From Flavobacteriales bacterium (lineage in GTDB: Bacteria; Bacteroidota; Bacteroidia; CAIKAF01), in the NCBI GenBank assembly GCA_018401695.1, contig JAGYKD010000003.1:124001-188000 (forward strand): a stretch of 64,000 bases of DNA. Reading direction: 5' to 3'. Positions 8,266 through 27,838 of this stretch are shown here, piece by piece (positions within the stretch are counted from its first letter, which is position 1; each line of letters opens with the position of its first letter). The position numbers and the translations under genes are program-made. The notes under the pieces are model-generated. The model was not told where the DNA came from and did no database searches. It worked only from the letters and a program-made list of their open reading frames with translations.

Positions 8266-8486
8266 GAGACCGTAGACGGGAGACTATTCGGGCGGCATTC
8301 CTGTCCTGACCGAAGCGTCAGGAGTTCTTCATTTACAAGCAGTAAACTGCGGCCTGTCCTGACCGAAGCGTCAGTTTCTTGAATCCTGACCGAAGCATCA
8401 GGAGGCCTGTCGATTTGTCCGTGTCTTAAACCCCTTGGGCCTCGGTCAAGGACTTCGTTTTGAAAGCACAATAGGTCTACGGTCTC
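8266..8486 (+). repeat. Inverted-repeat-ended intergenic element, family F copy 1 (expanded)
   Basis: Starts GAGACCGTAGAC (8266-8277) and ends with the perfect inverse GTCTACGGTCTC (8475-8486). Inside are hairpins of the type CCTGACCGAAGCGTCAGG, present twice or more, and the segment CGATTTGTCCGTG shared with the other F copies. At about 221 bp it is longer than the 144-bp copies because of an internal repeat of the hairpin unit. It fills the convergent gap between the GT2 fusion and the first PKD gene. Confidence 0.7.
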
Positions 8487-8502: not shown

Positions 8503-11500
8503 TTATCGAACCAGATTTACTTTTCCTCTGAACTCATGCCATTCTCCGTAAAAGTCCCGAACTCTTATTCGGTACACGTATACGTCTTGCTTGGCAAGTT
8601 TATCGGCATGGAATCCGTTCCACCCTTTCTCTAGGGGTTCCATATTTTCCATGTAGATGAGTTCGTCTCCCCAGCGGTTAAAGATCCACATTTCGGCTTC
8701 TACCATACCGCGGCCTTCAATTTTGAAGAAGTCGTTTAGACCGTCCTCGTTGGGTGAGAAGGAGTTGGGAATGAATACGGTGAAATCGGGATTAATGCTC
8801 AGCACATGGGTAATGGAGTCAGAACAGCCATTTTCGGTAGCTACCCATAGATAAATGTAATAAGTTCCGGTATCTGCAGGGTATACATGAGATACATTCA
8901 TGGAACTGTGGGTGGTTCCATCGCCCATGTCCCAATAGAATTGGTTGGGTCCACCCAAGCTTTGATTGAAGAACTCAATGTTTCTGTTTACAATGGTTGG
9001 TTCTTCCGGGGTAAACTTGAATTGAGCATCGGGTAGGGCATGCACTTCAATCATGTCGTTTACGGTAACGGAGGTATCGCATCCTTTGTCGGAGATGGCA
9101 TACATGCTTACGGTATAGAATCCGGGGTTCATGTACCACTGGTTTGGATCGTCTTGATTTGAGGTATTTCCATTGCCCAAATCCCAAGTAATTCCGGTTA
9201 CGGTATTGTCGCCGGGAATGGTGGTTTGGTTTTCGAAATACACCCGAAGCGGGGCACAACCTTCCACCGGATCTGCGGTAAAGTTGATGCGCGGTCTAGG
9301 GAAGATAGAAACGGGTTTGGTGATGGAGTCGATACATCCATGGTTGGATGAAGCCATTAAGGTAACTTGATAGGTACCATCGGCGGCATATTGTACCACC
9401 GGATCTACGGTGTACGATGTGGGCACGCTGTCGGATCCGAAGTTCCAGGTATATCCGGTGATGGATCCCCCTGCAATGGAAGAGCTGTTGTTAAAAATCA
9501 CAGGTTCTCTGGAGCAAACGCTCTGAGCGGAAAAGTCAGGCTCAGGCAAAGGCCAAACGGTAGTGTTTCCGGTTACGGTATCGGTACAACCATTGGAAGA
9601 GGTAACAATTAAGGTAATGGGGAATGCTCCGGGAGCACCATAGGTATGGTTAAAGGTAGCGTTGGTATAGTTTCCTCCATCGCCGGTGGTCCACTGCCAT
9701 TGGCTGATTTGATCGTTTTGCACGGTGGAGTTGTCGGTGAAAGGAGAGGGTGCTGTATGGCAAGTATTCGGCGCGGTAAAAGCAGCCACAGGCCAATGGT
9801 AATTGGTGTATGGAATAGATATGGTATCGGTACACCCTTCGTTGGAAGTAGCGATGAGGGTAACATTATAGGTACCGTTATCGGCATAGGTATGGGTGGG
9901 CGAGTTAGCCGAAGAGCTGTTTCCGTCGTCAAAATCCCAATCCCAGGTGGCAATAGAGCCAGGCGCAGGAATGGAGGATTGGTTAATGAATGGAGCAATC
10001 ATACCGCAAGAGGGGGGCAGCGCAAAGTTGGTAACCGGCTTAGGAGTAATAAGCAAGGGATTGGTAACGGTATCGGTACATCCCCCTTGACCGGTCACTA
10101 CTAGCGTAATGTTATACTGTCCATGGGTGCCATACAGGTGAGCAGGGTTTTGCTGATTCGAGCTGTTTCCGTCACCAAAGTCCCATTGCCAGTTAGCGAT
10201 GGTTGAATTAGGAATGGTAGACTGGTCAGAGAAGGGCGCGGGAGTTTCGTCGCAGGTTTGTGGTACGCTAAAGGCGGCTTGGGGAATGGACCAAGTGGTG
10301 AAAGGCTGTACGAGCGTATCGGAACACCCTTCGTTGGAAACCACAATAAGGGAGATGTTGTAGGATCCTGGATTGGTGTATTGGTGCGTAGGATTTTGTT
10401 GGTTGGAGCTTTGTCCATTACCAAAGTTCCATTGGTTGGAAGTTATGGTACCGGGCTGAGCAATGGAAGAAAGGTTAGAGAATGCATTGGTCAAACCGCA
10501 AGAATCGGGCAGAGTGAAGCCTGCAACCGGGGTAGGAGGGATGTTGATTGGATTTGCAGCGGTATCGGTACATCCACCCACGCCTGTTACCACCAGGGTG
10601 ACGTTGTATTGACCATGCTGAGGGTAGCTGTAAGCGGGGTTTTGGGTATTGCCGTTTTGTCCGTTTCCATAGCTCCAATCCCACTGGGTGATTTGGGAGT
10701 TTTGAATGGTAGAGAGGTCTTGGAATGGCACGGCATTTCCATGGCAGGTTTGCGGTCCGGAGAAGGCAGCCTGTGGAATGGCATATACAGTGAAGTTCTG
10801 TGTTGTGGTATCGGTACAGCCGTCGGCGGTGGTTACCGCATGGGTAATGGCATAAGTGCCCGGACTTTGATAATTAAAGGCAGCGTTTTGGGTATTGAGC
10901 GTTTGCCCGTTGCCCAAATCCCAATGGTAGGTATTGATGTTCCCGGGCTGAGCTACCGCACTTGTACTGAGGAAACTGTCGCTGAGTCCACAGGAATCCG
11001 GCATGGTAAAGGAAGCGGTAGGAGTAGGGGGAACCACCACCACTTGGGTAGCGGTATCGGTACATCCGCCGGGACCTGTAACTACCAGTGAGGTATTATA
11101 GGTTCCGTGTTGTGGGTAATTGTAATTGGGGCTTTGCTGATTGGAGTTTTGTCCATTGCCGTAATCCCAGTTGTATGCAAGGTTTCCACCGCCTTGAACG
11201 GAGGAGGTATTGGTAAAAGGCACGGCATTGCCGTGGCAGGTTTGGGGCGCAGTGTATTGTGCGTTTGGAATGGCGTAAACGGTAAAGTTTTGGGTTTCGG
11301 TGTCTACGCAGCCGTTGGAAGAAGTAGTGGTGAGAGTAATAGGATATGTTCCGGGAGTGGCAAAATTAAAGTTGGGGTTTTGCTGTCCGGAAGTTTGTCC
11401 ATTACCTAAGTTCCATTGATTAGAGGTAATGGTGCCCGGAGAGGCGATGGTAGAAGTATTGGTAATTTGTCCTGTTAGCCCGCAGGGAGGAGGCAATGTA

Positions 11501-13125
11501 AATGAGGCGACAGGTACCGGGTGCACGGTAACCTGTTGTGTGGCGGTATCGCTGCAATTTCCGGCTCCGGTGGCAATGAGGGTGACGGTGTAGGTGCCGG
11601 ATTGTTGGTAATTATGCCAAGGACTTTGTTGGAATGAGCTGTTTCCATTGCCAAAATCCCAGGTATAAGTCATATTTCCCCAACCGGGCAAGGTACTTTG
11701 GTTAATAAAGGGTAGGTTGTTTCCGGTACATACAGACTGGAAGGTAAATGCAGCGGTAGGTATGGCATTTACATTAATTTGCTGTGTAATGGTATCGTAG
11801 CAACCGGCATTATCGCCCACAATAAGAGAGACATTATAGCTTCCCGGTGCGGCATAGGTATGGCCTGGATTTTGTTGATTTGAGGTGTTTCCATCGCCAA
11901 AATCCCAGGCGTGAGAAACCAAGGTACCGGGGCTGGAAATAGAGGAGAGGTCGGTGAATTGCTTGTTTAGTCCGCAGAGCGTATCCATGGAGAATCCGGG
12001 TTGAATTACCGGAGGGACAGTAACGGGCAGGGTAACGGTGTCGGCACAGCCTGCGGGAGCTTCGGCAATAAGGGTTACGTTATAGGTGCCGGGTTGTTGG
12101 TACTGGTGGATAGGACTTTGTCCTGTTCCCGAGTTTCCATCGCCAAAATCCCAGGACCAATTGGAGGGCCAGGAATTGGGAATAATGGTAGAGTCGGTGA
12201 ACTGAATGGTACCGTTGCAGAGGTTGGATGTGGTGAAATGGGCTACAGGAACAATGGGTTGAATATTGGTTGAAAGGGTTGCGTTACATCCGGTTTGGGA
12301 GGTTAAGGTTACCGACCAAGGAATTACATTAAGATGTGGGTTTTGAATAGTAACTGAAGGGGTTGTAGCTCCGTTGCTCCATAAATAATTAGCAAATCCG
12401 GCTGGGGCGGTTAGGGTTGCCAGGGTGTCGCCTTGACAATAGGCTATATCGATTTGAAGAGGGCGACATTCTGCCACTAAATATCCATGACCGGAGTGGC
12501 CGCCCCAGCCGCAGTCACCCGATTGGGCTTCAATAGTAACGGTTTGACCTGAGAGCTGAGAAAGGTCAATACCGGATTTTGTCCAGTTTTTCCAAACATA
12601 TCCTGCATAGCTTCCCCAGCCCGGAAGGTTTGGATTTGCCCAAACATTTAGAAAGGTACAGGGTACTATTTGTCCGTTTTGGTTTCGAACTTGAATTTGA
12701 AATTTGGGTTGGTCAGGAACCGGGTGTCCTGCAGGGTATTGAAGAACAACGGCATATTCATAGGTAAAAAGCGTATTTTGATTGTTCACCACAAAAGAAT
12801 AGGCAAGGCGCTCAGCTTGACGTCCTCCGGAGCTGTTTCCCAAACGAGCTGACTGGTTATATCCGGGAGGCACCCGTTGGAGCATGGGCACAATATTATC
12901 CGTACCCGGAGTCATAATGGTGTGTCGCCCATTGACTATGACATTGGGAACATTGATATTGATGGTTGGACAACAAATTCCGGTTCCACCTGTCCAGTTT
13001 TGGAAGTTGCCAAAAGAGAAGTCCGCATTGGGGCAACCGAAATTCCCTTGTGCGTTAGATTTAGGGACTACACCTAGCAATAAGGCTAGAGCCAAAAGAA
13101 CAAAAGGGGGTATACGTTTAATCAT
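8503..13125 (-). CDS. Giant secreted PKD-repeat protein with T9SS type B sorting domain (paralogue 1)
   Basis: 1,540 residues. Signal peptide MIKRIPPFVLLALALLLGVV...SNAQG. Next comes an N-terminal beta-rich domain of about 200 residues (CPNADFSFGNFQNW ... CRPLQIDIAYCQGDTLATL), then 14 consecutive PKD-like domains of about 80 residues each. These carry the signature WDFGDGNSSNQQNP...HTY..PGTYNVTL and end in GC.DT. Nearly every repeat has two cysteines, one near its start and one in GC.DT, so one disulfide per domain is plausible. The last 90 residues (IPNSFSPNEDGLNDFFKI ... FNRWG ... VYVYRIRVRDFYGEW) form the gliding-motility-associated CHU_C/type B sorting domain that directs T9SS export. Expected to be a cell-surface or released adhesin. 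A close paralogue follows immediately upstream on the same strand. Confidence 0.92.
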   Translation of the reverse strand: MIKRIPPFVLLALALLLGVVPKSNAQGNFGCPNADFSFGNFQNWTGGTGICCPTININVPNVIVNGRHTIMTPGTDNIVPMLQRVPPGYNQSARLGNSSGGRQAERLAYSFVVNNQNTLFTYEYAVVLQYPAGHPVPDQPKFQIQVRNQNGQIVPCTFLNVWANPNLPGWGSYAGYVWKNWTKSGIDLSQLSGQTVTIEAQSGDCGWGGHSGHGYLVAECRPLQIDIAYCQGDTLATLTAPAGFANYLWSNGATTPSVTIQNPHLNVIPWSVTLTSQTGCNATLSTNIQPIVPVAHFTTSNLCNGTIQFTDSTIIPNSWPSNWSWDFGDGNSGTGQSPIHQYQQPGTYNVTLIAEAPAGCADTVTLPVTVPPVIQPGFSMDTLCGLNKQFTDLSSISSPGTLVSHAWDFGDGNTSNQQNPGHTYAAPGSYNVSLIVGDNAGCYDTITQQINVNAIPTAAFTFQSVCTGNNLPFINQSTLPGWGNMTYTWDFGNGNSSFQQSPWHNYQQSGTYTVTLIATGAGNCSDTATQQVTVHPVPVASFTLPPPCGLTGQITNTSTIASPGTITSNQWNLGNGQTSGQQNPNFNFATPGTYPITLTTTSSNGCVDTETQNFTVYAIPNAQYTAPQTCHGNAVPFTNTSSVQGGGNLAYNWDYGNGQNSNQQSPNYNYPQHGTYNTSLVVTGPGGCTDTATQVVVVPPTPTASFTMPDSCGLSDSFLSTSAVAQPGNINTYHWDLGNGQTLNTQNAAFNYQSPGTYAITHAVTTADGCTDTTTQNFTVYAIPQAAFSGPQTCHGNAVPFQDLSTIQNSQITQWDWSYGNGQNGNTQNPAYSYPQHGQYNVTLVVTGVGGCTDTAANPINIPPTPVAGFTLPDSCGLTNAFSNLSSIAQPGTITSNQWNFGNGQSSNQQNPTHQYTNPGSYNISLIVVSNEGCSDTLVQPFTTWSIPQAAFSVPQTCDETPAPFSDQSTIPNSTIANWQWDFGDGNSSNQQNPAHLYGTHGQYNITLVVTGQGGCTDTVTNPLLITPKPVTNFALPPSCGMIAPFINQSSIPAPGSIATWDWDFDDGNSSSANSPTHTYADNGTYNVTLIATSNEGCTDTISIPYTNYHWPVAAFTAPNTCHTAPSPFTDNSTVQNDQISQWQWTTGDGGNYTNATFNHTYGAPGAFPITLIVTSSNGCTDTVTGNTTVWPLPEPDFSAQSVCSREPVIFNNSSSIAGGSITGYTWNFGSDSVPTSYTVDPVVQYAADGTYQVTLMASSNHGCIDSITKPVSIFPRPRINFTADPVEGCAPLRVYFENQTTIPGDNTVTGITWDLGNGNTSNQDDPNQWYMNPGFYTVSMYAISDKGCDTSVTVNDMIEVHALPDAQFKFTPEEPTIVNRNIEFFNQSLGGPNQFYWDMGDGTTHSSMNVSHVYPADTGTYYIYLWVATENGCSDSITHVLSINPDFTVFIPNSFSPNEDGLNDFFKIEGRGMVEAEMWIFNRWGDELIYMENMEPLEKGWNGFHADKLAKQDVYVYRIRVRDFYGEWHEFRGKVNLVR
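8991..11253 (-). repeat. Block shared identically with the paralogous PKD gene (copy A)
   Basis: Bases 8991-11253 match 13966-16228 at a constant offset of 4,975 bp with no difference found in the stretches compared. The match continues to 11295 with one mismatch. It covers about 754 codons: several PKD repeats and the start of the last PKD domain before the sorting domain. Outside it the two genes differ by many substitutions. Confidence 0.85.
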
Positions 13126-13477
13126 AGTCTTTGTTTGCGATGACTATTATGCAAAATCCGCATCGTAAAGTTAGTAAAGAAAACTCCCCCTGGCAAAATT
13201 CTTTGAAGCGCGCCTATGTTTTGGTTGGATTTTTTTCTTAAATCCTATGGAAAATAATGCCCTGCTTTTGCTTTGCCGACGGATGTTCCGTTAGCGCATT
13301 CCATGCCCACAGAGTTATCTAGTGCATCTGCGGATATTTATTAGGTTCTATTGCCCTACCGGAGATTTTAAAAAAAAATAATATGTGGGTTAGAAGCAAT
13401 GCCTCTATACTTTGGTTGTCAAATTTGTGAAAACCGTCGTGCACAGCATGGCTTTTATTTTTTGCTTTTCGGTGATT
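13126..13477. other. Intergenic region between the two tandem PKD paralogues
   Basis: 352 bp upstream of paralogue 1 and downstream of paralogue 2. It is AT-rich, with runs of T and A, and must contain the promoter of paralogue 1 if the two are not cotranscribed. No exact minus-strand TAnnTTTG near the start, no terminator hairpin and no E or F element were found. Confidence 0.4.
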
Positions 13478-16400
13478 TTAGCGGACCAAATTTACTTTCC
13501 CTCGATACTCATACCATTCGCCGTAAAAGTCTCTAACTCTAATACGGTAAACATACACGCCTTGTTTTACCAATTCCTGGGCATAAGATCCATCCCAACC
13601 TTTGGCCAAGGGTTCTAGGTTCTTAAGGTAGGCAAGTTCTTGACCCCAGCGGTTAAAGATCCACATTTCGGCTTCTGCCATGCCTCGACCTTCAATTTTA
13701 AAGACATCGTTTAATCCATCGTCATTTGGTGAAAAGGCATTGGGAATATAAATGGTAAAATCCGGATTGATGCTTAGAGGGTGGATTATAGAATCAGAAC
13801 AGCCATGCTCATTTGCTACCCACAAATAAATGTAATAGGTGCCGGTATCTGCAGGGTATACATGAGATACATTCATGGAATTGTAGGTATTCCCATCGCC
13901 CATGTCCCAATAAAACTCCGTGGGTCCACCCAGGCTTTGGTTGAAGAATTCGATGTCTCTCTCGGCAATGGTTGGTTCTTCCGGGGTAAACTTGAATTGA
14001 GCATCGGGTAGGGCATGCACTTCAATCATGTCGTTTACGGTAACGGAGGTATCGCATCCTTTGTCGGAGATGGCATACATGCTTACGGTATAGAATCCGG
14101 GGTTCATGTACCACTGGTTTGGATCGTCTTGATTTGAGGTATTTCCATTGCCCAAATCCCAAGTAATTCCGGTTACGGTATTGTCGCCGGGAATGGTGGT
14201 TTGGTTTTCGAAATACACCCGAAGCGGGGCACAACCTTCCACCGGATCTGCGGTAAAGTTGATGCGCGGTCTAGGGAAGATAGAAACGGGTTTGGTGATG
14301 GAGTCGATACATCCATGGTTGGATGAAGCCATTAAGGTAACTTGATAGGTACCATCGGCGGCATATTGTACCACCGGATCTACGGTGTACGATGTGGGCA
14401 CGCTGTCGGATCCGAAGTTCCAGGTATATCCGGTGATGGATCCCCCTGCAATGGAAGAGCTGTTGTTAAAAATCACAGGTTCTCTGGAGCAAACGCTCTG
14501 AGCGGAAAAGTCAGGCTCAGGCAAAGGCCAAACGGTAGTGTTTCCGGTTACGGTATCGGTACAACCATTGGAAGAGGTAACAATTAAGGTAATGGGGAAT
14601 GCTCCGGGAGCACCATAGGTATGGTTAAAGGTAGCGTTGGTATAGTTTCCTCCATCGCCGGTGGTCCACTGCCATTGGCTGATTTGATCGTTTTGCACGG
14701 TGGAGTTGTCGGTGAAAGGAGAGGGTGCTGTATGGCAAGTATTCGGCGCGGTAAAAGCAGCCACAGGCCAATGGTAATTGGTGTATGGAATAGATATGGT
14801 ATCGGTACACCCTTCGTTGGAAGTAGCGATGAGGGTAACATTATAGGTACCGTTATCGGCATAGGTATGGGTGGGCGAGTTAGCCGAAGAGCTGTTTCCG
14901 TCGTCAAAATCCCAATCCCAGGTGGCAATAGAGCCAGGCGCAGGAATGGAGGATTGGTTAATGAATGGAGCAATCATACCGCAAGAGGGGGGCAGCGCAA
15001 AGTTGGTAACCGGCTTAGGAGTAATAAGCAAGGGATTGGTAACGGTATCGGTACATCCCCCTTGACCGGTCACTACTAGCGTAATGTTATACTGTCCATG
15101 GGTGCCATACAGGTGAGCAGGGTTTTGCTGATTCGAGCTGTTTCCGTCACCAAAGTCCCATTGCCAGTTAGCGATGGTTGAATTAGGAATGGTAGACTGG
15201 TCAGAGAAGGGCGCGGGAGTTTCGTCGCAGGTTTGTGGTACGCTAAAGGCGGCTTGGGGAATGGACCAAGTGGTGAAAGGCTGTACGAGCGTATCGGAAC
15301 ACCCTTCGTTGGAAACCACAATAAGGGAGATGTTGTAGGATCCTGGATTGGTGTATTGGTGCGTAGGATTTTGTTGGTTGGAGCTTTGTCCATTACCAAA
15401 GTTCCATTGGTTGGAAGTTATGGTACCGGGCTGAGCAATGGAAGAAAGGTTAGAGAATGCATTGGTCAAACCGCAAGAATCGGGCAGAGTGAAGCCTGCA
15501 ACCGGGGTAGGAGGGATGTTGATTGGATTTGCAGCGGTATCGGTACATCCACCCACGCCTGTTACCACCAGGGTGACGTTGTATTGACCATGCTGAGGGT
15601 AGCTGTAAGCGGGGTTTTGGGTATTGCCGTTTTGTCCGTTTCCATAGCTCCAATCCCACTGGGTGATTTGGGAGTTTTGAATGGTAGAGAGGTCTTGGAA
15701 TGGCACGGCATTTCCATGGCAGGTTTGCGGTCCGGAGAAGGCAGCCTGTGGAATGGCATATACAGTGAAGTTCTGTGTTGTGGTATCGGTACAGCCGTCG
15801 GCGGTGGTTACCGCATGGGTAATGGCATAAGTGCCCGGACTTTGATAATTAAAGGCAGCGTTTTGGGTATTGAGCGTTTGCCCGTTGCCCAAATCCCAAT
15901 GGTAGGTATTGATGTTCCCGGGCTGAGCTACCGCACTTGTACTGAGGAAACTGTCGCTGAGTCCACAGGAATCCGGCATGGTAAAGGAAGCGGTAGGAGT
16001 AGGGGGAACCACCACCACTTGGGTAGCGGTATCGGTACATCCGCCGGGACCTGTAACTACCAGTGAGGTATTATAGGTTCCGTGTTGTGGGTAATTGTAA
16101 TTGGGGCTTTGCTGATTGGAGTTTTGTCCATTGCCGTAATCCCAGTTGTATGCAAGGTTTCCACCGCCTTGAACGGAGGAGGTATTGGTAAAAGGCACGG
16201 CATTGCCGTGGCAGGTTTGGGGCGCAGTATATTGTGCGTTTGGAATGGCGTAAACGGTAAAGTTTTGGGTGTCGGCGTCTGCACAACCGTTGGCTGATGT
16301 CGTATTTAAAATAATGGTGTAGGTTCCGGGACTACCGTAGGTGAAGTTCGGGTTTTGCTGACCGGAAGTTTGTCCATTGCCTAGATTCCATTGATTAGAG

Positions 16401-18109
16401 GTGATGTTGCCCGGGGAGGCAATGGTAGAAGTATTCGTAATTTGTCCTGTGAGCCCACAAGGCGGTGGTAAGGTAAAAGAGGCGACAGGTAGAGGGTTGA
16501 CACTAACCTGCTGGGTAAGAGTATCGCTACAATTTCCTGTACCGGTTGCAATCAAGGTAACATTGTATGTGCCTGCTTGTTGATAGTTATGGGCAGGACT
16601 GGGTAGCGTGGAGCTATTTCCGTCTCCAAAGTCCCATTGGTAGGTCATTTGACTTCCGCCGGCTACAGTACTTGTATTAAAAAATGGCAATTGGTTTCCT
16701 TCACAAACGGCTTGGAAGGTAAAGGCCGCCGTGGGAAAGGCATTAACATTGATTTGTTGAATTAAGGTATCTGTACAATTTGAGTTATCGGTAGTTACCA
16801 GACTTACATTGTAACTGCCCGGCATGGCAAAAGTATGGTTGGGGTTTTGTTGACTGCTGGTATTGCCGTCTCCAAAGTCCCAAGCCCAATTGGTAATGGT
16901 GTTGGGCGAACCTACCGTGGTGGCATCGGTAAATTGTTTGGATAATCCACAAAGGGTATCTACCGAAAACGATGTTTGAATAACAGGAGGTGGAGTTACC
17001 GGAATGACAACAGTATCTGCACAACCTGCCGGTGCTTGAGCAATTAGAGTAACATTGTAGGTCCCCGGTTGTTGATATTGATGCACCGGATTCTGCACCG
17101 TTGAGGTATTTCCGTCACCAAAATCCCAAGACCATTGGCTAGGCCAAGAGTTAGGAATTATGGTGGAATCCGTAAATTGTACCGTGCCGTTGCATAGATT
17201 AGATGTATTGAAGTGGGCCACCGGAATAAGAGGCAACACATTCGTCGTTAACATGGCCGAGCAACCTGTTTCTGAGGTGATGGTTACGGACCAGGGTATT
17301 GGGTTTATGTGGGGATTAATTACCGTTACCGAAGGGGTGGTAGCGCCATTGCTCCATGCGTAGTTCTGAAACCCTGCAGGAGCGGTTAAGGTAGCTAAGG
17401 TGTCGCCTTGGCAATAGGCAACATCGATTTGCAAAGGACGACAACGCGCTACAATGTAACCGTAACCATAATGGCCAAAGTAGGAGCAATCTGCTGATGT
17501 GATTTCTATAGTTACCGTTTGTCCAATCAAATTTGTTAAATCAATACCAGACAAAGTCCAATCTTTCCAACGGACCGACCCCTGCGAGTTCCAGCCAGGA
17601 ATATTTGGCGCAGACGCAATGTTTACAAAAGTACAAGGCACTACCAATCCATTCTGATTACGCACCTGCACTTGAAGCCTAGGTTGGGCATTCTGAGGGT
17701 GGCCTGGATCCTGCAAAACAGCCGCCCATTGGTATTCAAATAAGGTATTTTGACCGGTGACAGGAAACGAATATGTCAAGCGCTCTGCCTCAGCTCCTGT
17801 TTGGCTGTTGCCTATCCGCGCAGAAAAAGCATAACCCGGAGGAACTGTGGTTAATGCAGGAACGATGGGGTCGATGTTGGGAAACATGATGGTGTGGCGG
17901 CCGTTTACAATGGTGTTGAACACCGTCATGTTGATGGTTCCCGTACCCGGATTGTTTCCTGTGGCACCTATCCAGTTGGTGAAATTCCCCATGGAAAAAT
18001 CCGCATTCGGACAACCTAAATTGATGCCTTGCCCATGTATGGCCGAAAACAGCAAAAATGCACCAAAAAATGACAGGAATTTTTTAAAGAACGGTAACTT
18101 TTTCCCCAT
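13478..18109 (-). CDS. Giant secreted PKD-repeat protein with T9SS type B sorting domain (paralogue 2)
   Basis: 1,543 residues from ATG 18109 (MGKKLPFFKKFLSFFGAFLL). An ATG at 18136 would add nine residues before an already good signal peptide, so the later start is preferred. Architecture is the same as its downstream neighbour: signal peptide, N-terminal domain (CPNADFSMGNFTNW ... CRPLQIDVAYCQGDTLATL), 14 PKD-like repeats and a type B sorting domain (IPNAFSPNDDGLNDVFKI ... FNRWG ... VYVYRIRVRDFYGEW). The central region is identical at DNA level to paralogue 1, while the N-terminal quarter and the sorting domain have drifted. This mosaic points to recent gene conversion rather than simple duplication. 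The paired tail and head differences could give different cell-surface specificity. Confidence 0.92.
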   Translation of the reverse strand: MGKKLPFFKKFLSFFGAFLLFSAIHGQGINLGCPNADFSMGNFTNWIGATGNNPGTGTINMTVFNTIVNGRHTIMFPNIDPIVPALTTVPPGYAFSARIGNSQTGAEAERLTYSFPVTGQNTLFEYQWAAVLQDPGHPQNAQPRLQVQVRNQNGLVVPCTFVNIASAPNIPGWNSQGSVRWKDWTLSGIDLTNLIGQTVTIEITSADCSYFGHYGYGYIVARCRPLQIDVAYCQGDTLATLTAPAGFQNYAWSNGATTPSVTVINPHINPIPWSVTITSETGCSAMLTTNVLPLIPVAHFNTSNLCNGTVQFTDSTIIPNSWPSQWSWDFGDGNTSTVQNPVHQYQQPGTYNVTLIAQAPAGCADTVVIPVTPPPVIQTSFSVDTLCGLSKQFTDATTVGSPNTITNWAWDFGDGNTSSQQNPNHTFAMPGSYNVSLVTTDNSNCTDTLIQQINVNAFPTAAFTFQAVCEGNQLPFFNTSTVAGGSQMTYQWDFGDGNSSTLPSPAHNYQQAGTYNVTLIATGTGNCSDTLTQQVSVNPLPVASFTLPPPCGLTGQITNTSTIASPGNITSNQWNLGNGQTSGQQNPNFTYGSPGTYTIILNTTSANGCADADTQNFTVYAIPNAQYTAPQTCHGNAVPFTNTSSVQGGGNLAYNWDYGNGQNSNQQSPNYNYPQHGTYNTSLVVTGPGGCTDTATQVVVVPPTPTASFTMPDSCGLSDSFLSTSAVAQPGNINTYHWDLGNGQTLNTQNAAFNYQSPGTYAITHAVTTADGCTDTTTQNFTVYAIPQAAFSGPQTCHGNAVPFQDLSTIQNSQITQWDWSYGNGQNGNTQNPAYSYPQHGQYNVTLVVTGVGGCTDTAANPINIPPTPVAGFTLPDSCGLTNAFSNLSSIAQPGTITSNQWNFGNGQSSNQQNPTHQYTNPGSYNISLIVVSNEGCSDTLVQPFTTWSIPQAAFSVPQTCDETPAPFSDQSTIPNSTIANWQWDFGDGNSSNQQNPAHLYGTHGQYNITLVVTGQGGCTDTVTNPLLITPKPVTNFALPPSCGMIAPFINQSSIPAPGSIATWDWDFDDGNSSSANSPTHTYADNGTYNVTLIATSNEGCTDTISIPYTNYHWPVAAFTAPNTCHTAPSPFTDNSTVQNDQISQWQWTTGDGGNYTNATFNHTYGAPGAFPITLIVTSSNGCTDTVTGNTTVWPLPEPDFSAQSVCSREPVIFNNSSSIAGGSITGYTWNFGSDSVPTSYTVDPVVQYAADGTYQVTLMASSNHGCIDSITKPVSIFPRPRINFTADPVEGCAPLRVYFENQTTIPGDNTVTGITWDLGNGNTSNQDDPNQWYMNPGFYTVSMYAISDKGCDTSVTVNDMIEVHALPDAQFKFTPEEPTIAERDIEFFNQSLGGPTEFYWDMGDGNTYNSMNVSHVYPADTGTYYIYLWVANEHGCSDSIIHPLSINPDFTIYIPNAFSPNDDGLNDVFKIEGRGMAEAEMWIFNRWGQELAYLKNLEPLAKGWDGSYAQELVKQGVYVYRIRVRDFYGEWYEYRGKVNLVR
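13966..16228 (-). repeat. Block shared identically with the paralogous PKD gene (copy B)
   Basis: Partner of 8991-11253. The left boundary is abrupt: sequence before 13966 differs from that before 8991. The first mismatch on the right is at 16229 (A here, G at 11254). Confidence 0.85.
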
Positions 18110-18524
18110 GTCTAGTATTAATAAGTATAAAAACACTTGTTTCTTTCATGTAAAAATACTAAACTATTTTTAATACGGCAAATAGTTTTGAAAAGTATTC
18201 CTAAAGAATGGATGTACTAATGCGATGTAAAACTCAAAGTAAATATTTGATGTTCAATTTTTAAATGCACCCCAGCCCAATGTTTAATCAGAACATCTGA
18301 GTCGAAACTTTGAATTTGTCCAGGGGGCCTTTCTTATTTTAAATCCGTGAATTTTACGTCCTGAATTTTACGCGGTGTGGTGCCTATAAATCCAATTGGC
18401 GTGATCATGAACGCATCCCTTCTCCGCCGCTGCCCTAAAAGCAAGGTTTGGGCTGTGTTGCAGCCACCCCGGAGTGTCACCACAGCTTCCCAAGCGCTGG
18501 GGCAAGGACCAATTTAATTAGTAA
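18110..18524. other. Intergenic region upstream of PKD paralogue 2
   Basis: About 415 bp. The first 200 bp are AT-rich and presumably hold the promoter of the minus-strand PKD gene. No gene, tRNA or clear hairpin-plus-T terminator was found. The remainder of the 783-bp intergenic gap is occupied by a partial F element, an E element and a terminator, listed separately. Confidence 0.4.
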
Positions 18525-18592
18525 ACTTCGGCCTGTCCTGACCAGCAGCGTCAGGAAAAATCCTTGAAAACACAACACGTCAACGGGCTTAA
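18525..18592 (+). repeat. Partial family F element (copy 2)
   Basis: Contains GGCCTGTCCTGACC, a GCGTCAGG hairpin arm and the 3' end CTTGAAAACACAACACG followed by TCAACGG, matching the right half of the F copy near 32.2 kb. The left terminal repeat and the CGATTTGTCCGTG segment are missing, so it is a truncated copy. Confidence 0.55.
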
Positions 18593-18619
18593 AATAAGCA
18601 AGAAATGATAAAGAAGTTT

Positions 18620-18766
18620 GGGCGCCTTTTCCGGTGCTTGGCTTTACTCCGCAGCTCAAGCCCTTGCTTTATGGACCTTTAGGGAGCTTGCTGCGCTCCG
18701 CTCCTAAAGGCCTCCTAAAGCATAGGGCTTGCCCTTTGCGGGGTGCCGCCGCTCCCCGGGGCGCAT
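18620..18766 (-). repeat. GC-rich structured intergenic element, family E (- orientation)
   Basis: Read on the minus strand it starts GCGCCCCGGGGAGCGG and ends GGAGTAAAGCCAAGCACCGG followed by AAAAGGCGCC, matching the E 5' and 3' motifs. The inner stem pairs a CCTTTAGGAGC arm with GCTCCCTAAAGG. GAAG/CTTC extends the outer pairing. It lies between two minus-strand PKD genes. Confidence 0.75.
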
Positions 18767-18861
18767 CTTCCAAGGGTTGTTCTTTGTTTGGATGGTGTTG
18801 TTTAAGCATATGCACCCCCTCTCACATGGGGCCTTATCCCAAACATTACCTATGCCCTCAT

Positions 18862-18888
18862 AAAAAAAAGAGGCCTAAGCCTCTTTTT
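18862..18888 (-). terminator. Rho-independent terminator of the third PKD gene
   Basis: AAAAGAGGC / GCCTCTTTT forms a stem with a 2-4 nt loop. It has an A run on the left, which is the T run on the minus strand, and sits directly after the stop at 18893. It is nearly symmetrical, so it could also work in the other direction. Confidence 0.7.
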
Positions 18889-18892
18889 AAAT

Positions 18893-21526
18893 TCATCGAA
18901 TCAAATGCAGTCTGCCATGGTATTCATACCATTCTCCAAAAATATCCCTGGCACGAACTCGATAGGTATAGGTGTCCTTTTTCAACAACTCCCCATCCTT
19001 GGTTCCATCCCATCCTTTTTTCATGGGCTCTAAATTGCCTTGGCTATGCAAAAGTTCTCCCCAGCGGTTAAAAATGTCCAGTTCAACTTCTACAACGGCT
19101 GCACCGCGCACCAAAAAGACATCGTTTAGACCGTCTCCGTCGGGAGTAAAGGCATTGGGGATATACAAGCTGTATTCAGGCAATACCGTAACCGGACGTG
19201 TGGTGGTATCCGAACAGCCGTATTGGTTGAATGATATTAAGGTAACCCAATAGGTGGCGGTATCTGCCGGATACAAAACCGTCGGATTATTTTCGGTGCT
19301 GGTTTCCCCATTACCGAAATCCCATTCGCTTGATTCTCCCATATCTGAAAGGTTGCCAAACTGTACCAATGGATTGTTGGTGGTAGGTGTTTCCGGGCTA
19401 TACTCAAAAATGGCCGTAGGCTGAGGACGAACGGTGATATATGCTGTTTTAGTAATGCTTGTGTCGCAGCCTTGGTCTGAACGGGCATACAAAGTAACGT
19501 CATAGGTTCCCGGCGCATTTGGATAACTATGGCTGGGACTTTGTTGGGTAGATGTAAAGCCATCACCAAAAGTCCACATCCAATCTACTACTTGACCGGT
19601 ATTTATAGTAGTTAGGTTATTAAACAAGGGGGCTACAGGATAACAACCATCTACCGGATCAGCATTCCAATCAATTTCGGGATTAGGCCAAACCGTCAAA
19701 CTTTTGGTTATGGAGTCTACGCATCCGTGATTACTGGAAGCTATCAGGGTTACAGGATACAGTCCATCTCCCGGATAATTTGCAGTGGGGTTGGTGGCAT
19801 TGGAGCTGCCTTGGCCGGCACCCAAATTCCAAGTGTAGTTTGGTACAGAACCGAAGGGTATGGTGGTCTGATTGGTCAATTGTGTCGTGTAACCTTCACA
19901 AACCTCCGTAAACGTAAAATCAGGAACGGGCAATGGATAAATATCAATAGACTGACTGACCGTGTCGCTGCAACCTTCGGCCGAAGTCACAATAAGCTGC
20001 ACACTATAGCTTCCATGGCTACTAAACACATGGTTGGTGGCAGCATTTCCTTGGTCGGTAGCTCCGTTGTCGTTGAAATCCCATTGCCAATCTGCAATGG
20101 TACTAAACTGCACCGTACTTTGATCGGTAAAAGTCATGGCCTGCAAGTCGCAAACCGATGGCGCAGAAAACTGTGCTGCGGGGTAGGCCCAATTGGTGTA
20201 TTGTTGCGTTGAAGTGCTTGTACAACCATTCGCAGCAGTCACCGTTAAGGTTACGTTCCACTGTCCGGGTTGTGCGTAAGTATGTGAGGGATTTTGCTGA
20301 TTGGATGTACCTCCATCACCAAAGTCCCAATTCCAGCCGGTAATTTGACCGGGGCCGCTTGGGGTTGTGGAGGTGTCCGTGAAATTGGCAGTAAGTCCGC
20401 AATCCGTGGGCAATAAAAAACCGGCCAAGGGGTCGGCATCTACTACTGTTACAGGAAAGGATATGGAGTCTTGGCAACCTGAATTAGCTGTTATAATGAG
20501 CGTTCCTGTGTAATTGCCGTAGTTTTGATAGGTATGTGATGGATTTTGTTGGTTGGAGCTGTTTCCGTCACCAAAATCCCAATTCCAGCCGGCAATTTGG
20601 TTGTTTTGGGCGTAGGAAGAAGTATCGCTGAAATTAATTAATCCCGAACAGCCCGGAACTTGACTTACGGCTCCGGCCAAATCAATCACTTGTATGCAAA
20701 GAGTATCTGAACAAGAAAATCCAGAAGTATCTGCAATGGTTACAATGATGCAAGAGTCTTGAGTTAGGTTAAATAAAGTATCGGTATTGGCATTGGCTCC
20801 CGAAAGACCGGTCGACCATTGAAACGAGGCGGAGGAACCCGAATTGATTTGAATGTCTTCCAAACCCCAGTTGTCGCAGCAAGTACCGGATGAGTTGAAT
20901 TGAATCCAACGAAACATGGTGGCTGGAGTTTGAGCGGCAGGTGGAATGGGAATGGATACCGTATTCCAAACGGTGTAGGGTGTTGGACCCATGGCAGCAT
21001 TACCAAAAGTGCCGGGGTTGGCCGGCAATTGAAATCCTCCCGGCGAAAAATAAGTAATGTCTACCCATGAAACGCCATTGTTTATAGAATATTGGAGCGA
21101 AACCCCTTCATTGGCTTGGTCGGGTCCCTCGCAAGGTTGACCTCCTCCTTGTACTGAATAAATGAAACTAAAATCAATGGTTCCACCTCCGGTAGTATTT
21201 AGGGCTGATGTAGTAATTTGAGGGGTAGTATTGCCGGCACTTGCAGCCCAGTAATAGGGAGTGCCACTGGGGCTTGGCCCACAAGGAGAGCTGAAAAAGG
21301 TGCTGCCGGTTGTGGTCCAACCTGAAGGCAGTCCACCGCTATTGAAATTAAAGTTATAGGCTCCACCGGATTGTAAAAAACCGTTGGCCGTCAGAATCAC
21401 ATCAGAACCGCTGCAAACCGGATTGTGGTTGGCGGTAACGCTAATATTACACACATTTTGTGCAAAGGATTGACTACCAAGGATAAAGAACAGGACAGGA
21501 AGAAAACGCGTAAAAGTGTTTCTCAT
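18893..21526 (-). CDS. Secreted Reelin-like/PKD-repeat protein with T9SS type B sorting domain
   Basis: 877 residues from ATG 21526 (MRNTFTRFLPVLFFILGSQSFAQ, signal peptide). Upstream in-frame codons only add a non-signal leader. Residues about 25-235 form a beta-sandwich domain resembling Reelin repeats: GLPSGWTTTG, SGTPYYWAAS, EGVSLQYSINNGVSWVDITY, and FRWIQFNSSGTCCDNWGLED. Six PKD-like domains follow (WNWDFGDGNSSNQQNPSHTY and variants), then a CHU_C/type B sorting domain (IPNAFTPDGDGLNDVFLV ... FNRWG ... TYTYRVRARDIFGEWYEY). Predicted cargo of the type IX secretion system, acting at the cell surface. The same Reelin-like N-terminus occurs in the protein encoded at 41.1-43.3 kb. It is flanked by two inverted E elements. 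Confidence 0.9.
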   Translation of the reverse strand: MRNTFTRFLPVLFFILGSQSFAQNVCNISVTANHNPVCSGSDVILTANGFLQSGGAYNFNFNSGGLPSGWTTTGSTFFSSPCGPSPSGTPYYWAASAGNTTPQITTSALNTTGGGTIDFSFIYSVQGGGQPCEGPDQANEGVSLQYSINNGVSWVDITYFSPGGFQLPANPGTFGNAAMGPTPYTVWNTVSIPIPPAAQTPATMFRWIQFNSSGTCCDNWGLEDIQINSGSSASFQWSTGLSGANANTDTLFNLTQDSCIIVTIADTSGFSCSDTLCIQVIDLAGAVSQVPGCSGLINFSDTSSYAQNNQIAGWNWDFGDGNSSNQQNPSHTYQNYGNYTGTLIITANSGCQDSISFPVTVVDADPLAGFLLPTDCGLTANFTDTSTTPSGPGQITGWNWDFGDGGTSNQQNPSHTYAQPGQWNVTLTVTAANGCTSTSTQQYTNWAYPAAQFSAPSVCDLQAMTFTDQSTVQFSTIADWQWDFNDNGATDQGNAATNHVFSSHGSYSVQLIVTSAEGCSDTVSQSIDIYPLPVPDFTFTEVCEGYTTQLTNQTTIPFGSVPNYTWNLGAGQGSSNATNPTANYPGDGLYPVTLIASSNHGCVDSITKSLTVWPNPEIDWNADPVDGCYPVAPLFNNLTTINTGQVVDWMWTFGDGFTSTQQSPSHSYPNAPGTYDVTLYARSDQGCDTSITKTAYITVRPQPTAIFEYSPETPTTNNPLVQFGNLSDMGESSEWDFGNGETSTENNPTVLYPADTATYWVTLISFNQYGCSDTTTRPVTVLPEYSLYIPNAFTPDGDGLNDVFLVRGAAVVEVELDIFNRWGELLHSQGNLEPMKKGWDGTKDGELLKKDTYTYRVRARDIFGEWYEYHGRLHLIR

Positions 21527-21651
21527 TTTTATTGGATATATATCAACCAAATATATCAAAATTGCCATTTCTTACCTAAAAATTTCCTGTAAGAAAACAA
21601 GAAATTAAGTTTTTTTAGGGCCGTATTTTGAAACTGAACATGGAATAGTAT

Positions 21652-27694: not shown

Positions 27695-27838
27695 GAGACT
27701 GTAGATGCCTTGTGTTTTTAAGTTTTTTGAATGCCGGCCATAGCCCCGGTACGCATTTATGCGCGGGTACATTGAAAGGCCGCTGACGCTTCGGTCAGGA
27801 CAGGATCGCCGTTAGAATAGCAACGCGTCAGCAGCCCC
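27695..27838 (-). repeat. Inverted-repeat-ended intergenic element, family F (- orientation, 144 bp)
   Basis: On the minus strand it reads GCTGACGCGTTGCTATTCT ... CGATCCTGTCCTGACCGAAG ... CTTAAAAACACAAGGCATC ... GTCTC, aligned end to end with the F copy at 32.1 kb. The terminal repeats here have diverged from each other, so pairing of the ends is imperfect. The sequence from 27839 to 28012 holds no recognised feature. Confidence 0.65.

Follow-up and report, generated by a model that had tools for sequence, protein, structure and literature searches.

Segmental identity between neighboring surface-protein genes has been described in Leptospira, where the tandem Big-domain genes ligA and ligB are near-identical up to coding-region position +1890; gene conversion was inferred there and described as favored by the tandem arrangement (PMC7821625). 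Within the Bacteroidota, the adhesin regions of Porphyromonas gingivalis kgp, rgpA, and hagA carry identical repeats across genes that break short-read assemblies (PMC5266723). A survey of long-lasting concerted evolution in prokaryotes by Wang and Chen found 26 genes, mostly complex or pathway genes, with full-length homogenization for which recurrent gene conversion was held responsible; the authors name partial-gene concerted evolution as future work (PMC6053082).

Here we analyzed a stretch of 64,000 nucleotides from a Flavobacteriales genome (the window), which contains two tandem genes, g1 and g2, that share an internal segment of 2.3 kb. Like ligA/ligB, they are tandem surface genes built of Ig-fold repeats, nearly identical in one segment and diverged elsewhere. 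The lig genes, however, share their 5' part together with the promoter region and differ in the C-terminal part alone, whereas g1 and g2 share an internal segment and differ at both ends. The two systems also differ in phylum, domain family, and secretion route. We regard ligA/ligB as the closest precedent, a pair that probably works alike but does not, on present evidence, appear to be a homologous gene family. Like kgp, rgpA, and hagA, the pair encodes surface proteins of the Bacteroidota whose C-terminal domain is conserved and whose genes have identical repeat sequence in common. The P. gingivalis domains, though, undergo combinatorial rearrangement and swapping from strain to strain and are not PKD stalks in tandem arrays, whereas g1 and g2 keep domain order and number and appear to exchange sequence in register. 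As in the cases of Wang and Chen, paralogs are closer to each other than to orthologs, synonymous sites included, and the copies are syntenic; unlike those cases, homogenization is segmental, lies in surface proteins, and spans one species split only. Our literature searches found no account of PKD arrays evolving in concert. Gene conversion of this kind is already known, and g1/g2 and their sister arrays add a further case: a clear-cut natural instance of bacterial concerted evolution confined to part of a gene, with three arrays in one genome, testable together, two of which are also found in a second species.

The tract shared by g1 and g2

Both genes encode proteins of the same architecture, in which a hydrophobic, signal-like N-terminus is followed by a head, 14 PKD_4 domains, and a CHU_C/T9SS type B sorting domain. 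The C-termini of g1 and g2 score 48.4 and 54.7 bits against Pfam CHU_C (curated cut-off 27), and 46.7 and 51.1 bits against NCBIfam TIGR04131 (curated cut-off 35). From these matches, we predict that both products are T9SS-type surface proteins with a diverged head, a stalk of 14 PKD domains, and a type B sorting domain. In g2, an ATG lies 9 codons downstream of the GTG start. A Pfam search gave no match for the head of the g1/g2 type. An AlphaFold model of the head (pLDDT 48) had its best Z scores, about 8–9.7, to immune inhibitor A2, MAM, and CBM-type domains, which suggests, with low confidence, a beta-sandwich of the MAM/carbohydrate-binding type. The shorter gene of array A is about 38% identical to g1/g2 at the amino acid level and lies outside the homogenization.

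Table 1. Positions of the genes, gene segments, and arrays discussed; coordinates are those of the window unless a contig is named.
Feature	Position	Strand	Description	Evidence
g1	8503..13125	minus	PKD-array surface protein gene, 1540 aa	ORF; Pfam PKD_4 and CHU_C; NCBIfam TIGR04131
g2	13478..18136	minus	tandem paralog of g1, 1552 aa counted from GTG	ORF; Pfam, NCBIfam
third, shorter PKD gene of array A	18893..21568	minus	891 aa; adjoins g2	
g1 head	11296..13125	minus	signal-like N-terminus, head domain, PKD domains 1–4	
g2 head	16271..18136	minus	diverged from g1, orthologous to h2	
g1 tail	8503..8990	minus	PKD domain 14 and sorting domain	
g2 tail	13478..13965	minus	PKD domain 14 and sorting domain; orthologous to h2	
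homogenized tract in g1	8991..11295	minus	2305 bp; aa about 611–1379	
homogenized tract in g2	13966..16270	minus	2305 bp; aa about 623–1391	
array B genes	G000:C14 4812–8474 and 8713–12420		with a 291-aa remnant	
array C	G000:C12		four tandem genes of about 2250 aa	

The original prediction, made from the window alone, held that positions 8991–11253 and 13966–16228 are identical, synonymous sites included, with sharp boundaries and differing ends. Alignment of all 2263 bp (offset 4975) gave 0 mismatches. Beyond this exact run there is a single mismatch at 11254, followed by 41 bp that match up to 11295/16270. That mismatch, the sole difference in the tract, is synonymous and lies outside the run originally claimed. 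Directly outside the tract, identity between g1 and g2 drops to about 73–85%, and it is lower still toward the N-terminus. Accordingly, dS between the two genes is 0.002 in the tract, 1.7 in the tails, and saturated in the heads. A GENECONV-type test had been proposed as a check, and in a GENECONV-style permutation of the polymorphic sites the longest run of g1–g2 identity was 786 sites, compared with a maximum of 30 in 10,000 permutations. These parts of the prediction were thus borne out.

The tract covers PKD domains 5–13 and extends a few codons into domains 4 and 14. We found no further near-identical copies of the 2.3-kb tract across the assembled genome, and each gene holds a single in-register copy. 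At the DNA level, the PKD units of g1 have only about 40–66% identity to one another, so homogenization runs in register between genes; the same values rule out intragenic repeat slippage. The two tract borders are about 20 and 37 bp away from the junctions between PKD domains. We considered the idea that borders are set at domain junctions but did not retain it, as a PKD period of about 250 bp makes these distances weak evidence.

Comparison with a related species

We compared array A, which is known from two species, with its counterpart in G002, a relative in the same genus represented by a metagenome-assembled genome (MAG) with SPAdes-style contig names. The neighbors of array A and its gene order are common to both genomes: G002 carries orthologs h1 and h2, ordered as g1 and g2, plus a paralog, h3, and an ortholog of the 891-aa gene. 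Amino acid identity between g1 and h1 is 95% in the head and 98% in the tail, and between g2 and h2 it is 87% and 93%, compared with 71% and 80% between g1 and g2. For the tract, nucleotide identity is 100% between g1 and g2 and 97.2% between h1 and h2 (703 bp assembled), compared with about 90% between species, and dS is 0.10 between h1 and h2 versus about 0.55 between species. The homogeneity of h1 and h2 was seen at both tract ends, the middle of h2 (about 1.6 kb) being absent from the G002 assembly.

Quartet sites separated the segments of the genes in the same way. Within the tract, sites grouping paralogs and sites grouping orthologs stood at 58:0. The heads had 251 sites grouping orthologs, 25 grouping paralogs, and 30 with an exchanged pattern, and the tails had 47, 7, and 2, respectively. 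The middle is thus homogenized and the ends are left different, as originally predicted. The switch between grouping by genome and grouping by ortholog occurs at identical alignment columns in both species. Because the tract groups by genome and the flanks by ortholog, the tract has been re-homogenized separately in the two lineages since the species parted. The orthology of the flanks and the conserved synteny indicate that the g1/g2 duplication predates that split, and hence that there were no independent duplications. With paralogs closer than orthologs in the tract, even at synonymous sites, the pattern is, as judged from these comparisons, one of concerted evolution.

The last homogenization in this genome appears to be young: the single synonymous difference in the tract dates it to less than about 2% of the between-species divergence (95% upper bound). 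As to donor direction, 12 of the 20 informative sites favor the h1-like state versus 6, a split that would be compatible with either gene as donor. We also considered the lower between-species divergence of the tract as a sign of biased conversion, but did not retain this reading because dS between g1 and h1 declines gradually, without a step at the border. In a comparison of window 8503–21568 with L040/L041, between-species dS of the PKD surface genes outside the tract is 0.93–1.16, about twice that of neighboring non-PKD genes (0.32–0.56), and along g1 it falls in a gradient from the N- to the C-terminus.

The additional paralog h3 (L041 2636–7297, on G002:C34) is a long gene lying between h2 and the 891-aa gene. 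It is diverged from h1/h2, without homogenization, which fits a similarity threshold. This genome is missing h3 but retains some of the flanking intergenic sequence on both sides of the site. Its origin would fall after the split from G003 and G004, in which the long gene is single.

Probable recurrent exchange and its alternatives

We consider it very probable that the central 2.3 kb of g1 and g2 is under segmental concerted evolution, by recurrent in-register recombination between borders of lost homology. Homologous recombination would copy the middle of one gene onto its neighbor, in register, either by non-reciprocal gene conversion or by gain and loss of copies in the tandem array, to the same effect. 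Conversion would require long near-identical stretches and would halt at head and tail sequence that has already diverged. This would keep the borders in place, since a conversion tract stops once homology is lost, with or without selection for specialized heads and tails. Heads and tails follow the species tree, while the middle has been equalized anew within each genome.

Identity of this kind could also have been produced by an assembler or polisher that copied one tract onto the other, given that exact repeats of the tract's length are hard for short reads and that one contig of this assembly terminates within another PKD gene. We judge this unlikely, as the independent G002 assembly has the same tract and borders with its own sequence, the tract sits within a 521-kb contig, and isolated mismatches have survived between the long identical blocks of arrays B and C, so there was no general erasure. 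The start of G002 contig C34 is identical to h1 over exactly 127 bp, and G002 contigs C9 and C18 likewise have an overlap of exactly 127 bp, as expected of a k-mer assembler at a true shared repeat. At the readable contig ends of this assembly, in which most small contigs read as N, there were no k-mer overlaps, and an Rfam search of the small contigs gave no matches. A few real differences between the g1 and g2 tracts could have been erased in this assembly. If this genome is taken alone, one recent partial duplication, in which the middle of one gene was made once from the other with no recurrent exchange, would suffice for the exact identity. It becomes highly improbable in light of G002, where heads and tails are orthologous and yet the tract is homogenized on its own, with all 58 sites grouping by genome. 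Such a count in a tract with orthologous flanks implies at least one homogenizing event per lineage, or one in each on top of the original duplication. Thus, of the "recent gene conversion or partial duplication" first proposed, conversion stands, in recurrent form, and a single partial duplication does not.

The original prediction also likened the pair to a system for shuffling adhesin ends, here a dedicated one acting around a constant middle. A 2.3-kb direct repeat at a distance of 4975 bp would be a crossover substrate for head2–tail1 chimeras, and the extra family gene in G002, h3, indicates that copy number changes. Nevertheless, both species have the pairings head 1–tail 1 and head 2–tail 2. 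No chimera was present in either, exchanged-pattern sites are outnumbered 251 to 30 in the heads and 47 to 2 in the tails, and the assembled genome has no additional silent copy of the tract. With head–tail linkage unchanged between this genome and G002, where alternative chimeras might have appeared, we find dedicated shuffling very hard to credit.

Recurrent segmental exchange might further be backed by selection, such that tandem T9SS PKD proteins form "same stalk, different head and anchor" sets maintained by gene conversion, possibly because the stalks must pack or work together. We regard this extension as doubtful. If it were true, segmental concerted evolution would be a general organizing mode for surface proteins in these Bacteroidia, hidden so far because short-read assemblies break in identical tracts. 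More generally, segments within one gene have different histories, and this can make gene trees, dN/dS scans, and short-read assemblies misleading for large surface proteins of the Bacteroidota.

Further PKD arrays and dispersed repeats

Homogenization is seen in at least three tandem PKD arrays of this genome (G000) and, for two of them, also in the related species. The two array B genes have an exact 1864-bp tract in common and saturated heads, and their G002 counterparts, c1/c2, are homogenized over part of the tract. Between the two middle genes of array C there are islands with dS of 0.01–0.15 between saturated or strongly diverged blocks; the outer two genes are without homogenization. 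Permutation tests were concordant for arrays A, B, and C, and near-identical copies are confined to their own array. Array C of G001 and G005 shows weaker traces, with exact stretches of 67–111 bp. Among 78 loci of other genomes, internal long exact repeats were present in L088 and L110 only, in a survey of short-read MAGs that are biased against such repeats, so that absence is uninformative.

The 291-aa remnant of a third array B PKD gene (L138, G000:C14 12761–13633) has a tail near-identical to those of its neighbors. At the corresponding position G002 has the full-length c1, of 1243 aa, which suggests that most of the third gene has been lost here.

Several contigs end within PKD genes, namely at the end of G000:C1 (L175), the end of G002:C3 (L047), and the starts of G003:C13 and C19 (L185 and L184). 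The two G003 contig starts have 265 bp in common, with one mismatch. More homogenized tracts are probably hidden at PKD-gene contig breaks of this genus.

Finally, the short palindrome CTGACCGAAGCGTCAG occurs in the window at 8304–8323, 8359–8374, 8387–8401, and 27783–27797. With 40 exact copies in the genome, compared with 0 for the reversed control, it looks like a REP-type dispersed repeat.
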